From assembly GCA_016213245.1 (NCBI GenBank), contig JACRBC010000005.1, positions 1-59,578 on the forward strand: a DNA stretch of 59,578 bases, given 5' to 3'. Positions 10,148 through 18,345 of this stretch are shown here, piece after piece. Origin of the DNA: Candidatus Solibacter usitatus. Lineage in GTDB: Bacteria > Acidobacteriota > Terriglobia > Bryobacterales > Bryobacteraceae. The position numbers were made by a program, and so were the translations under genes. The stretch's first letter is position 1. Each line of letters starts with the position of its first letter. The notes under the pieces were generated by a model. That model worked only from the letters and a program-made list of their open reading frames with translations, was not told the DNA's origin and did no database searches.

Positions 10148-11779
10148 ATGTGGCAGCAGCAATACACACCGCTCGGCGGCAGCCTCGCGCTCTCGGCGCT
10201 CGCCGCCGCCCTTCCTCTCTTCACGCTGCTCTACTTGCTGGGCGTGAAGCGCAAAGCCTCCTGGGTGGCGGCACTCGCCGGACTGGGGGCGGCCGTGCTG
10301 GTCGCCCTGCTCGTCTACCGGACGCCCGCGGCCATCACCCTCGGTGCGCTCACTTACGGCGCGGCCTTCGGCCTCTTCCCCATCTGCTGGATCATCTTCT
10401 GGGCCATCTTCCTCTACCGTCTGAGTGTCGAGACCGGCCAGTTTGAAATCATCAAGGACTCCATCGGCGGCCTCACCCCGGACCGCCGCCTGCAGGCGCT
10501 TCTCATCGCCTTCGCCTTCGGCGCTTTCGTCGAGGGCGCCGCCGGCTTCGGCGCTCCCGTTGCCGTCGCCGCCGCCATGCTCACCGGCTTGGGCTTCTCC
10601 CCGTTTTACGCCGCCGGTATCTGCCTGCTGGCCAACACCGCGCCGGTCGCCTTCGGCTCCATCGGCATCCCCGTCATTACCCTGGCCGGCATCACCGGTT
10701 TGCCCGTCGATCAGCTCAGCGCCGCCGTCGGCCGCATCTGCGCGCCGGTCTCGGTGTGGATCCCCTGCTATCTCATCCTCGTGATGGGCGGCTGGAAGGC
10801 GCTCAAAGGCGTGTTCGCGGCGGCGCTGATGGTAGGGGTGGCATTCGCCGGCGCCCAGTTCTACGCCTCCAACTACCTGGGCCCCGAACTCACCGACATC
10901 CTCGGCTCGCTGGCCGCCATCGCCATGGCCCTGCTGTTCGCCTACGTCTTTAAGCCTGCCGATCACTTCGTCTTCGACGGCGCCGCCGCGGAGGCCCAAC
11001 TCTCCCCCAGACACGGCTTTCGCGCCGTGGCCAAGGCCTGGTCGCCGTACGCCCTGCTGGTGGTCTGCGTCCTGCTCTGGGGGCGCGCCGAGGTCAAGGC
11101 GTTCCTGAACACCTTCACGATCCCCGTGGAATGGCCGGGATTGCACAACCAGGTTCTCCAGGCGCCGCCCGTCACTCTCAAGGCCGCCCCGTACGCGGCC
11201 CGCTATGCCTTCAACTGGCTTTCCGCCGCTGGCACCGCCTGCCTGCTGGCGTGTTTCCTCACGGCGCTGGTGCTCAGGGTCCCGTTGCAGACTCTACGCC
11301 TCGTCTTCCGGACCACCTGTAGCCAACTGGCCAAGCCCACCCTGACCGTGGCCTCGGTACTCGCTCTGGCCTTTCTGATGAACTACTCCGGCGCCACCGC
11401 CACGCTTGGCCTCGCCTTTGCCGCCACCGGCGCCGCCTTCCCGTTCTTTAGTGCGCTGCTCGGCTGGCTGGGCGTCTTCCTCACCGGCAGCGACACCAGC
11501 GCTAATGCGCTCTTCGGCAACCTCCAGGTGGTCACCTCCAACAAGCTGGGTCTGAACCCCATCCTCATGGCCGCCTCGAACTCCAGCGGCGGCGTCATGG
11601 GCAAGATGATCAGCCTCCAGAGCATTGCCGTGGCGGCGGCGGCCACCGACATGTCACAGGAAGACGAGTCGCGCCTCTTCCGTTTCACGCTCCGCCACAG
11701 CGTGCTGCTGGCTTCCGTAATCGGCCTGGTGGTGCTTTTCTACGCCTACGTCAGGCCGGATTGGGCGCCCGGCGCCTGA
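10148..11779 (+). CDS. lldP: L-lactate permease
   Basis: This is a polytopic inner-membrane protein of 543 residues with about a dozen or more hydrophobic helices. Conserved family blocks are AFGAFVEGAAGFGAPVAV and LANTAPVAFGSIGIP, and the late segment SNSSGGVMGKMIS is also typical of the LctP family. It imports lactate (and often glycolate) by proton symport. It starts nine bases after the beta-lactamase-like gene. No lactate dehydrogenase lies nearby. Confidence 0.92.
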   Translation: MWQQQYTPLGGSLALSALAAALPLFTLLYLLGVKRKASWVAALAGLGAAVLVALLVYRTPAAITLGALTYGAAFGLFPICWIIFWAIFLYRLSVETGQFEIIKDSIGGLTPDRRLQALLIAFAFGAFVEGAAGFGAPVAVAAAMLTGLGFSPFYAAGICLLANTAPVAFGSIGIPVITLAGITGLPVDQLSAAVGRICAPVSVWIPCYLILVMGGWKALKGVFAAALMVGVAFAGAQFYASNYLGPELTDILGSLAAIAMALLFAYVFKPADHFVFDGAAAEAQLSPRHGFRAVAKAWSPYALLVVCVLLWGRAEVKAFLNTFTIPVEWPGLHNQVLQAPPVTLKAAPYAARYAFNWLSAAGTACLLACFLTALVLRVPLQTLRLVFRTTCSQLAKPTLTVASVLALAFLMNYSGATATLGLAFAATGAAFPFFSALLGWLGVFLTGSDTSANALFGNLQVVTSNKLGLNPILMAASNSSGGVMGKMISLQSIAVAAAATDMSQEDESRLFRFTLRHSVLLASVIGLVVLFYAYVRPDWAPGA

Positions 11780-16705: not shown

Positions 16706-17734
16706 ATGGCCGGCAAACTCCAGGGGATCTTCACCCCCACTCTTGTGCCGCTCGACGCTCGCGGCGAGATCAACGAGCCCGAACTCCGCCGCTTCCTCGC
16801 CTGGCTCATCCAGAAGGGCGTTCACGGCCTCTATCCCAACGGCTCCACCGGCGAGTTTACCCGGCTCAGCCTCGAGGAACGCCGCCGCATCGTCAAGATC
16901 TCCTGCGAAGTCGCCCACGGCAAGGTCCCCGTGCTGGCCGGCGCCGCCGAGGCCAACGTCCGCGATACGCTGGCCGCCTGCGAAGCCTACGCCGGCTACG
17001 GCGCCGTCGCTGTCGCCATCGTCTCCCCCTTCTACTACCGCCTCAGCCCCGATTCCGTCTACGCCTACTTCGCCGAGATTGCCAAACACTCCCCCATCGA
17101 CGTCACGCTGTACAACATCCCCATGTTCGCCAGCCCCATCGATGTGCGGACCATCCAGAGGCTGGCCGCCGATTGCCCGCGCATCATCGGCATCAAGGAT
17201 TCCACCGGCGATCTCGCCTTCATGATGCGCATGATCGCCGCTGTCCGCCCCATCCGCCCGGACTTTACCTTCCTGACTGGCTGGGACGTCGTCCTTACCC
17301 CCATGATGCTGGCCGGCTGCGATGGCGGCACCAACGCCAGCAGCAACGTCGTCCCCGAACTGATGCGCCAGGTCTACGATCTCACCAGGGCGGGGCACTA
17401 CCAGCAGGCAATGAAACTCCATACCCGCATCCTGGAGCTCTTCGACGCCATGCTGTTGCCCTTCGAGTTCCCGGACGGCTTCCGCTGCGGCGCAGCCATG
17501 CGCGGCTTCGACTTCGGCCGCGGCCGCCAGCCCATGACCGCCGCCCAGCAAGCCGATCGCGCCGCCCTGGAAAAAGTCTTGCGCTGCATTCTCGCCGATA
17601 GCGGTGTCGTTGACCCGCCCGAGTCCGGTTGCGCTCCCCGCGGCGCGTCGATGAACCAGGACAAGATCGCGCAACTCGCCCTGGAAATCGTCGAAGACCT
17701 CGAGCAGCGAGGTGTCATCTGCACGAAGCGCTAG
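16706..17734 (+). CDS. DHDPS/NAL-family aldolase with C-terminal encapsulation-peptide-like tail
   Basis: The TIM-barrel core (about residues 1-290) has GSTGE (46-50), Tyr136 in TLYNIP, and Schiff-base Lys164 in GIKDST, so it should be an active class I aldolase or dehydratase. It lacks the YNVPSRT loop of true DapA, so lysine synthesis is unlikely; a keto-acid aldolase or dehydratase fits better. The protein is 342 residues, about 45 longer than usual. The extra part is a Pro/Gly/Ser-rich linker (about 296-315) and an amphipathic helix, KIAQLALEIVEDLEQ (320-334). Such tails target enzymes into bacterial microcompartments. Downstream is a BMC shell gene overlapping by 16 bases. A GTG at 16655 is an alternative start; ATG at 16706 was preferred. 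Confidence 0.86.
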   Translation: MAGKLQGIFTPTLVPLDARGEINEPELRRFLAWLIQKGVHGLYPNGSTGEFTRLSLEERRRIVKISCEVAHGKVPVLAGAAEANVRDTLAACEAYAGYGAVAVAIVSPFYYRLSPDSVYAYFAEIAKHSPIDVTLYNIPMFASPIDVRTIQRLAADCPRIIGIKDSTGDLAFMMRMIAAVRPIRPDFTFLTGWDVVLTPMMLAGCDGGTNASSNVVPELMRQVYDLTRAGHYQQAMKLHTRILELFDAMLLPFEFPDGFRCGAAMRGFDFGRGRQPMTAAQQADRAALEKVLRCILADSGVVDPPESGCAPRGASMNQDKIAQLALEIVEDLEQRGVICTKR

Positions 17735-18345
17735 GGCTCGTCGAAGTCGGCGGCTGGTCCCCGGCCATGGTCATCCTCGACGCCATGGAGAAAGGCGGCC
17801 TCGTCCGTCTCCTCCAGACCGAACTCAACGACCAGCCCGGCGTCTGCCTCAAGCTGGCCGGTTCGCTCGGCGACCTGCGGTCGGCTTTGGATGCCGCCGC
17901 TCACATCGCCCGGCAAATGCAGGTGGCCGTCATCTGCGATGTCATCGCCGCCCCCGCTGAAGGCTCCGAACACGCCTGGTCGGCCGCGCCGGATTTCAAC
18001 CCGTTGATGGAACAGGCCACCGTCAAGGCGCCCCGTCAACCCAAAGCGAAGAGAGAGAGGAATATGTCGGAACAGGCAGGATTCGCTGTCGGCCTCATCG
18101 AGACCCAGGGCTTTACCGCCGTTTTCGAGGCCATCGACACGGCCCTGAAAACAGCCTCGGTGGAAGTGCTCGCCCGTGAAAAACTCGGCGGCGGATTCAT
18201 CACCGTCGTCATCAAGGGTGACGTAGCCGCCGTCCGCGCCGCCGTCGACGCCGGCCGCGCCAAGGTGGAGGGCCTCGGCAAGCTCATCGCCGCCCACGTC
18301 ATCCCCAGTCCGTCCGAGGGCGTTCTCTCCCTCCTGCCCAAGTAA
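17719..18345 (+). CDS. Tandem BMC-domain microcompartment shell protein
   Basis: Two Pfam00936-type BMC domains lie in one frame. Domain 1 covers residues 1-80 (ALGLVEVGGWSPAMVILDAM, ending CDVIAAP). A 35-residue charged linker follows. Domain 2 covers residues 116-208 (GLIETQGFTAVFEAIDTA, GDVAAVRAAVDAG, HVIPSP). The domains are not circularly permuted, as in CcmO, and unlike PduB/EutL. The frame has no ATG, GTG or TTG near domain 1. A CTG at 17719 with GAGGTG six bases earlier is the best start, lying inside the aldolase gene. The internal ATG at 18064 has its own strong RBS (GAGAGAGAGG) and could give a stand-alone BMC-H hexamer subunit. No BMC-P vertex gene is in the window. Confidence 0.85.
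   Translation: MHEALGLVEVGGWSPAMVILDAMEKGGLVRLLQTELNDQPGVCLKLAGSLGDLRSALDAAAHIARQMQVAVICDVIAAPAEGSEHAWSAAPDFNPLMEQATVKAPRQPKAKRERNMSEQAGFAVGLIETQGFTAVFEAIDTALKTASVEVLAREKLGGGFITVVIKGDVAAVRAAVDAGRAKVEGLGKLIAAHVIPSPSEGVLSLLPK
18064..18345 (+). other. Probable internal translation start giving a separate BMC-H protein
   Basis: Inside the tandem BMC frame, ATG at 18064 follows GAGAGAGAGG with a three-base gap. Its product would be a 93-residue protein with the exact size and motifs of a canonical hexameric BMC-H shell protein. Two products from one frame, tandem and single, would supply both shell tile types. This is an inference from the ribosome binding site and the domain boundary. Confidence 0.5.

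Follow-up and report, generated by a model that had tools for sequence, protein, structure and literature searches.

A DHDPS/NAL-family aldolase gene overlapped by a tandem microcompartment shell gene with a conserved internal start codon in Candidatus Solibacter usitatus

The window analyzed here, 59,578 nucleotides long, is a complete contig (C21, GenBank JACRBC010000005.1) of a Candidatus Solibacter usitatus assembly (G000; 3.83 Mb, 78.6% complete), from a bacterium of groundwater or soil. It carries a class I aldolase gene of the dihydrodipicolinate synthase/N-acetylneuraminate lyase (DHDPS/NAL) family, overlapped by a gene for a bacterial microcompartment (BMC) shell protein with two BMC domains (Table 1). 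In a Pfam scan, the aldolase matches PF00701 over residues 5–293 (E 1.5e-63; window 16706–17731), and the shell gene matches PF00936 in two stretches (E 6.3e-36; window 17719–18342), bearing out a preliminary description of the pair made from the DNA alone. The two frames share 16 bases, the shell frame being −1 relative to the aldolase. The CTG at 17719 sits at the site homologous to the start in relatives; the TTG at 17629 is a mechanical call of the open reading frame (ORF). Within the window, a PF00936 search returns just the two domains of the pair, a PF03319 search returns nothing, and tblastn with the aldehyde dehydrogenase linked to BMC genes in this genome gives no match at E 1e-3, in agreement with the earlier statement that no further shell, vertex, or aldehyde dehydrogenase gene lies nearby; no search was aimed at cofactor-recycling enzymes. 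That description does not mention that the aldolase ends in an encapsulation-peptide-like tail, that the internal start is conserved, or that the upstream start is CTG.

Table 1 Features of the aldolase–shell gene pair (window coordinates)
Feature	Position	Strand	Details
DHDPS/NAL-family (PF00701) class I aldolase gene	16706..17734	+	342 aa; ATG start; stop TAG at 17732–17734
Linker of the aldolase C-terminal extension, residues 299–315	17600..17650	+	Largely conserved P-x(2)-GC motif (alignment); coil in the model
C-terminal amphipathic helix, residues 316–334, encapsulation-peptide-like	17651..17707	+	Helix in the AlphaFold2 model
Two-domain BMC shell gene	17719..18345	+	CTG start; stop TAA; 208 aa tandem protein; PF00936 twice
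BMC domain 1, diverged	17728..17928	+	Loop NDQPG at the pore-loop position; N37, D38, and G41 invariant in 57 sequences
Shine–Dalgarno-like sequence before the internal start	18052..18060	+	AGAGAGAGG; across the loci, signal stronger than in synonymous shuffles
Internal ATG start codon of a putative stand-alone BMC-H-like product	18064..18066	+	ATG/GTG in 85/85 unique loci
BMC domain 2, predicted single-domain shell protein	18064..18345	+	Loop LGGG at the pore-loop position

The shell gene was compared across 110 loci from genomes labelled Acidobacteriota, Planctomycetota, or Verrucomicrobia. Merging identical loci leaves 85, including that of the window: 56 on the Acidobacteriota side (L021–L100 and L103) and 29 on the planctomycete/verrucomicrobial side (the others of L101–L130). 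A 57-sequence alignment shows the two PF00936 domains in one frame that define a tandem BMC shell protein. Mean pairwise identity over domain 1, linker, and domain 2 is 0.60, 0.51, and 0.89 in the 56 loci, and 0.56, 0.43, and 0.82 in the 29. Residues N37-D38 and G41 of domain 1 occupy the position of the pore-lining loop in the BMC-H proteins of the genome, where domain 2 has LGGG. We take the loops at this position to line the pore, as in BMC-H; with NDxxG in one and LGGG in the other, tiles made of the tandem and of the single domain should therefore differ in their pore lining.

An ATG or GTG lies 5–11 codons ahead of the conserved second-domain motif in all 85 unique loci (57 ATG and 28 GTG as chosen), and none of these loci has a stop codon between the two BMC domains. 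The Shine–Dalgarno (SD) energy before this codon averages −7.26 kcal/mol on the Acidobacteriota side, compared with −4.39 for synonymous shuffles (z −9.1), and −6.13 compared with −4.26 in the 29-locus group (z −4.1). Relatedness of the loci inflates shuffle z-scores; to allow for this, the same scan was run over all alignment columns present in 80% or more of the sequences. Of 191 columns on the Acidobacteriota side, none gives a stronger z than the start column (−8.6; next unrelated column −3.3). In the 29-locus group, the column beside the start is the strongest of 197 (z −4.4), with the start column at −3.7. Thirty PduT-like tandems from the same family served as a control: at no interdomain column do more than 47% of them have a start codon, and none of these columns also has an SD signal. 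On the scan and the control, we reject the view that the internal start is an artefact of codon use or a property of any tandem BMC gene; judged by both scans and the control, the Acidobacteriota-side group carries the case, and the 29-locus group supports it less strongly. Two tiles that differ in their pore loops, the tandem and a single-domain BMC-H, are thus probably produced from one frame.

The presumed start site of the tandem protein is conserved as well. An NTG stands at the upstream site in all 56 Acidobacteriota-side loci (CTG in 31, GTG in 12, ATG in 9, and TTG in 4); it lies exactly 12 codons before a conserved Trp in 45 of them and overlaps TGA as NTGA in 46. The SD energy before it is −6.80, compared with −5.32 when the sequence is shuffled so as to keep the aldolase frame synonymous (z −5.6; 53 of the 56 loci, as three had a stop in the frame assumed or lay near an edge and were excluded). 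Between the preceding in-frame stop and this site, 27 of the 56 loci contain no ATG, GTG, or TTG, so that a non-standard start is forced there unless frameshifting occurs.

AlphaFold2 predicts the tandem monomer with a pLDDT of 88.7 and a pTM of 0.86. A Foldseek search with this model returns chains of 6ner, an engineered BMC-H tandem fusion protein, as the first nine PDB matches (TM 0.74–0.78, rmsd 4–5 Å), and 6ner is also the best profile match (E 1.1e-55). PduT-type and HO BMC-T chains compare poorly with the predicted monomer (TM 0.36–0.41, rmsd 15–18 Å), and on this basis the standard PduT-like BMC-T arrangement was rejected. The prediction suggests that around the ring, the halves of the tandem would follow one another in the order of a BMC-H dimer and not in that of PduT. 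In contrast to the man-made 6ner, the tandem of the window is natural and has two diverged halves. Profile matches to PduA, EutM-like, CcmK, and HO-5815 chains cover domain 2. An identity as CcmO was discarded: the nearest NCBIfam model over the whole tandem (NF053792) gives 90.1 bits, far below its cut-off of 270.

The aldolase is 61–74% identical to 29 orthologues. K164 and Y136 are invariant in the 30 sequences and align to the Lys and Tyr of solved family members; presumably they are the Schiff-base lysine and the catalytic tyrosine. With these residues and a PF00701 score above the cut-off (214.7–214.9 bits), the protein belongs to the DHDPS/NAL superfamily. It passes none of the NCBIfam cut-offs for DapA, NanA, KDG aldolase, and KdgD. 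The best model is dapA (TIGR00674), where 161.6 bits against a cut-off of 206.15 speaks against a DapA identity; N-acetylneuraminate lyase was likewise rejected (NF003164, 149.3 of 281 bits; TIGR00683, 137.3 of 382 bits).

Beyond the PF00701 domain, the aldolase extends for a further 49 residues, which have the form of an encapsulation peptide, a terminal amphipathic helix of ~15–20 residues after a flexible linker. The hydrophobic moment of the helix averages 0.48, on average the 94th percentile of 18-mers of the same proteins (n = 30 sequences). By eye, similar tails are present in copies adjacent and non-adjacent to the shell gene, and on the planctomycete/verrucomicrobial side, a helix-like tail is seen in all 20 fetched copies, 16 of which are not adjacent to it. 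Among the seven other PF00701 genes of the genome, three end at most six residues from the domain and four have longer, dissimilar tails, as judged by eye and with some domain matches partial. The tail of the aldolase may be a signal directing the enzyme into a shell.

Such a shell could be provided from elsewhere in the genome. The genome-wide search proposed in the preliminary description finds further BMC-H, BMC-P, and BMC-T genes on other contigs; overall, four genes account for the six PF00936 matches, and PF03319 matches three times. In the class II aldolase (PF00596) of contig C142, the C-terminal tail is helix-like by eye; a BMC-H and three consecutive BMC-P genes belong to the same locus, and an aldo/keto reductase gene (PF00248) lies on the other strand, ~2.4 kb from the class II aldolase (L018, 17826–18788). 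On C99, a BMC-H gene accompanies an aldehyde dehydrogenase gene (PF00171) whose best NCBIfam model is the acetylating acetaldehyde dehydrogenase (541.6 bits, under the cut-off of 620.1). In this locus (L019, 9825–12030), the BMC-H comes first and the dehydrogenase has a long C-terminal extension in which two tails look helix-like by eye. On C7, a PduT-like tandem BMC gene lies next to that of a protein with RnfC and Complex1_51K domains (L020, 1206–3659), possibly an electron-transfer satellite of the same compartment. The pair itself has PF00936 without PF03319, with a fuller BMC locus elsewhere, as in a BMC satellite locus.

The main locus resembles the published ACI and PVM or PVM-like patterns. 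As far as the available portions of the two surveys go (PMC8217296, PMC4207490), it is alike in its class II aldolase with an encapsulation-peptide-like tail (by eye), BMC-H, BMC-P triplet, and satellite aldehyde dehydrogenase, the last being placed on a satellite in the ACI type (PMC8217296). The class II aldolase with C-terminal encapsulation peptide, BMC-P triplet, BMC-H, and satellite dehydrogenase are all features of ACI. The ACI hydroxyacid dehydrogenase (PF00389/PF02826) is absent from the ten ORFs neighbouring the C142 locus, in a search confined to these ORFs, and the main locus is therefore not classed as ACI.

The distribution of the pair was examined in 121 genomes of the family, namely its own and 120 drawn evenly from more. 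The two-domain gene is found in 34 of them, and these are also the 34 that have the aldolase (E ≤ 1e-90; Fisher 7.7e-31); in one genome (G120), the two-domain match spans residues 3–145 only. A second, partial copy of the pair is present in one family genome (G067, C942, 16938–18556). The aldolase is directly upstream in 29 of the 30 loci fetched from the 34 genomes, the thirtieth starting at a contig edge. BMC-P occurs in 92 of the 121 genomes, in 33 of the 34 with the pair compared with 59 of the 87 without it (Fisher 3e-4), and PduT-like matches (E ≤ 1e-25) in 68, including 28 of the 34. The preliminary description had staked the pair on its conservation in relatives and on both BMC domains matching PF00936, and it holds on both counts. 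A phylum-wide search (396 genomes, E 1e-40) finds the two-domain gene in its own genome only; just two other family members are listed there, neither a carrier, and the 375 genomes outside the listing gave no match, so that this search says little about the family.

Among 80 named loci, the best 80 of 135, the aldolase is directly upstream in 54. The Acidobacteriota side contributes 50 of its 51, the exception (L064) lying at a contig edge, and the planctomycete/verrucomicrobial side 4 of its 29 (two labelled Pirellulales and two Verrucomicrobia). The closest named relative of the shell gene among these 80 is from an Acidobacteria groundwater metagenome-assembled genome (92% identity); many other close relatives are labelled Bryobacteraceae, Bryobacterales, or Candidatus Solibacter, with some Granulicella, Terracidiphilus, and others, and one Arcobacter. 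The 29 planctomycete/verrucomicrobial-side genomes, chosen for the two-domain gene, have the aldolase in 27 cases and BMC-P in 28. In 146 genomes of the planctomycete order around one of these, the aldolase is found in 24 of 26 with the two-domain gene (E ≤ 1e-30) and in 63 of 120 without it (Fisher 1e-4), and by coordinates, no more than ~0.5 kb separates the two genes in 14 of the 26. Many aldolases of the 63 genomes match to residue 337–338, that is, with the tail included; aldolases without the two-domain gene may use another shell partner. The order also holds roughly 40%-identical forms of the two-domain gene.

Four other explanations have to be weighed. The shell gene could be an ordinary tandem BMC-T gene that makes the tandem protein only, its internal ATG or GTG being a relic of gene fusion. 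The resemblance of domain 2 to stand-alone BMC-H proteins in the profile matches is as expected from fused genes, and the SD signal of the 29 loci is modest, with a z-score comparable to that of one non-start control column. A relic should decay, however, whereas the codon is kept in 85 of 85 loci under three phylum labels, with SD energies stronger than the synonymous shuffles in both groups, and the PduT-like tandems have no such site; we consider this account unlikely. We give little credence to another, in which −1 ribosomal frameshifting from the aldolase reaches the shell frame and makes an aldolase–shell fusion without any CTG start. The shell frame does lie at −1, and nearly half of the Acidobacteriota-side loci lack a standard codon to start from. 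Yet the NTG is there in every one of these loci, mostly at a fixed distance from the Trp, 10 of the 56 lack the NTGA overlap for which a stop codon would be explanation enough, and the SD energy is stronger than in the shuffles. No slippery heptamer is seen by eye in L030, the single locus inspected. Frameshift fusion was rejected as the main route on the conservation of the NTG (56/56) and the SD signal (z −5.6).

The preliminary description had left two readings side by side, a satellite of a main locus and a self-sufficient two-gene compartment. The former is supported by the BMC-H and three BMC-P genes of the C142 locus and by the presence of BMC-P in 33 of the 34 pair genomes. The same BMC-P genes dispose of the latter, which the lack of a vertex gene and of a BMC-type aldehyde dehydrogenase on the contig could have favored and which we now find hardly credible. 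Just as implausible is that the aldolase is a housekeeping DapA or an unrelated enzyme with the shell gene an incidental neighbour. Although dapA is its best NCBIfam model, the score falls short of the cut-off, another PF00701 gene on contig C128 scores better against PF00701 (297 vs 214.9 bits), and where the DHDPS match 6xgs has an Arg following its YNIP motif, the aldolase of the pair has Phe in the alignment. The occurrence of both genes in the same 34 of 121 genomes and the recurring tail also speak against it.

Several observations count against the reading of the pair as a satellite with two shell products. Both start sites were chosen permissively, the internal one being accepted anywhere 2–13 codons before the second-domain motif and the upstream one as the NTG nearest position −12, accepted 9–17 codons before the Trp. 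The loci are related, and the shuffle z-scores overstate their independence, which the column scan lessens but does not remove. Raw SD energy is lower still at four further columns of the 29-locus group (to −6.70), although each of these is weaker than its own shuffles. In the PduT-like control, column 10, close to where that gene itself starts, reaches z −4.8 on a weak SD energy (−2.86), so by itself the −4.4 seen in the 29 loci does not stand out. The tails of the class II aldolase and the aldehyde dehydrogenase score low with the same moment script (0.17–0.27, windows not optimised), and the moment alone therefore does not define encapsulation peptides here. One pair genome (G025, 92% complete) has no BMC-P. 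On the planctomycete/verrucomicrobial side, 25 of the 29 loci have no aldolase next door, a few of them lying at contig edges, and 63 of the 120 planctomycete-order genomes without a two-domain match still have the aldolase; the enzyme thus does not always travel with the shell gene. Since the aldolase reaches no NCBIfam cut-off, the substrate proposed below is a guess.

Taking these points into account, we regard it as likely that the pair is a satellite "cargo plus port" module, with the aldolase encapsulated through its tail and the shell gene making two tiles from one frame. From the gene content, conservation, co-occurrence, nucleotide signal at both starts, and predicted monomer folds, we infer the following scheme for encapsulation, substrate, oligomers, and pore roles. 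The main compartment would be a class II aldolase-type metabolosome whose main parts are encoded elsewhere in the genome, and the aldolase of the pair would be drawn into its shell by the C-terminal amphipathic helix. There it would cleave a 2-keto-3-deoxy sugar acid, or a close relative, by Schiff-base chemistry; this substrate is proposed because its cleavage would give pyruvate and an aldehyde, which an encapsulated CoA-acylating aldehyde dehydrogenase could consume. Translation coupled to the end of the aldolase gene, mostly from CTG, would produce the tandem protein, which would form a pseudohexamer with a pore lined alternately by the NDxxG loops of domain 1 and the LGGG loops of domain 2. 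Initiation at the conserved internal ATG or GTG would release domain 2 alone as a BMC-H hexamer with LGGG loops only. The tandem and single-domain products may form separate tiles or mixed rings.

Clustering of the ORFs up to 7 kb from each of the 85 unique loci, of which many have only 1.5 kb of flank, brings up no conserved neighbour from which the substrate could be named. Besides the aldolase and its antisense frames, the commonest cluster occurs at 13 loci; its representative is in the wrong frame and by eye is like Gfo/Idh/MocA oxidoreductases. A Gfo/Idh/MocA oxidoreductase gene directly follows the pair in the verrucomicrobial L123 (4538–5560), a hint of sugar oxidation upstream of the aldolase. 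In the window, an L-lactate permease gene (PF02652, E 1.1e-160) lies at 10148–11779, ~5 kb upstream of the pair; a tie to lactaldehyde or lactate chemistry is speculation.

The long and short products CcmM58 and CcmM35 arise from one gene through a second start. In the tandem BMC gene for PduB and PduB′, an alternative translation start likewise gives a long and a short product, of which PduB′ is truncated at the N-terminus and still tandem, whereas the short product here would be one whole BMC domain and a different class of tile (PMC5109269, available portion). Second starts in BMC genes are thus already known; as far as the consulted parts of the literature extend, what is new here is a putative start from which an entire BMC domain would be made by itself, so that two classes of tile would result; none is found in open-licence papers (subscription papers and supplements lying outside the search). 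The closest organizational precedent in the available text of Sutter et al. (2021, PMC8217296) is the "EUT modules", satellite loci in which a signature enzyme and one shell protein thought to admit substrate extend a main BMC. The pair shares this layout of an enzyme plus one shell protein. The shell protein of the EUT modules is EutL; here, a DHDPS/NAL-family aldolase is combined with an unpermuted tandem that has an internal start. A DHDPS-family satellite is not mentioned in the available portions of PMC8217296 and PMC4207490, and the pair may be drawn in the supplement of the former. A search of open-licence PMC papers finds none that joins dihydrodipicolinate synthase with a microcompartment and a shell protein.

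The chances seem to us evenly balanced for a wider proposal, in which one gene supplies two tile classes and the cell sets the ratio of mixed NDxxG/LGGG pores to all-LGGG pores, or forms mixed rings. Together with an encapsulated keto-sugar-acid aldolase, this gene would then constitute an add-on substrate port common to Acidobacteriota, Planctomycetota, and Verrucomicrobiota. If so, the stoichiometry of two shell tiles with different pores would be tied to one mRNA, and the tandem would be a natural counterpart of an engineered tandem tile, of use in shell design. A DHDPS/NAL-family aldolase would join the proposed BMC cargo, and keto-sugar acids would offer a way to test the class II aldolase-type compartments of Acidobacteriota and planctomycetes, which are poorly understood.

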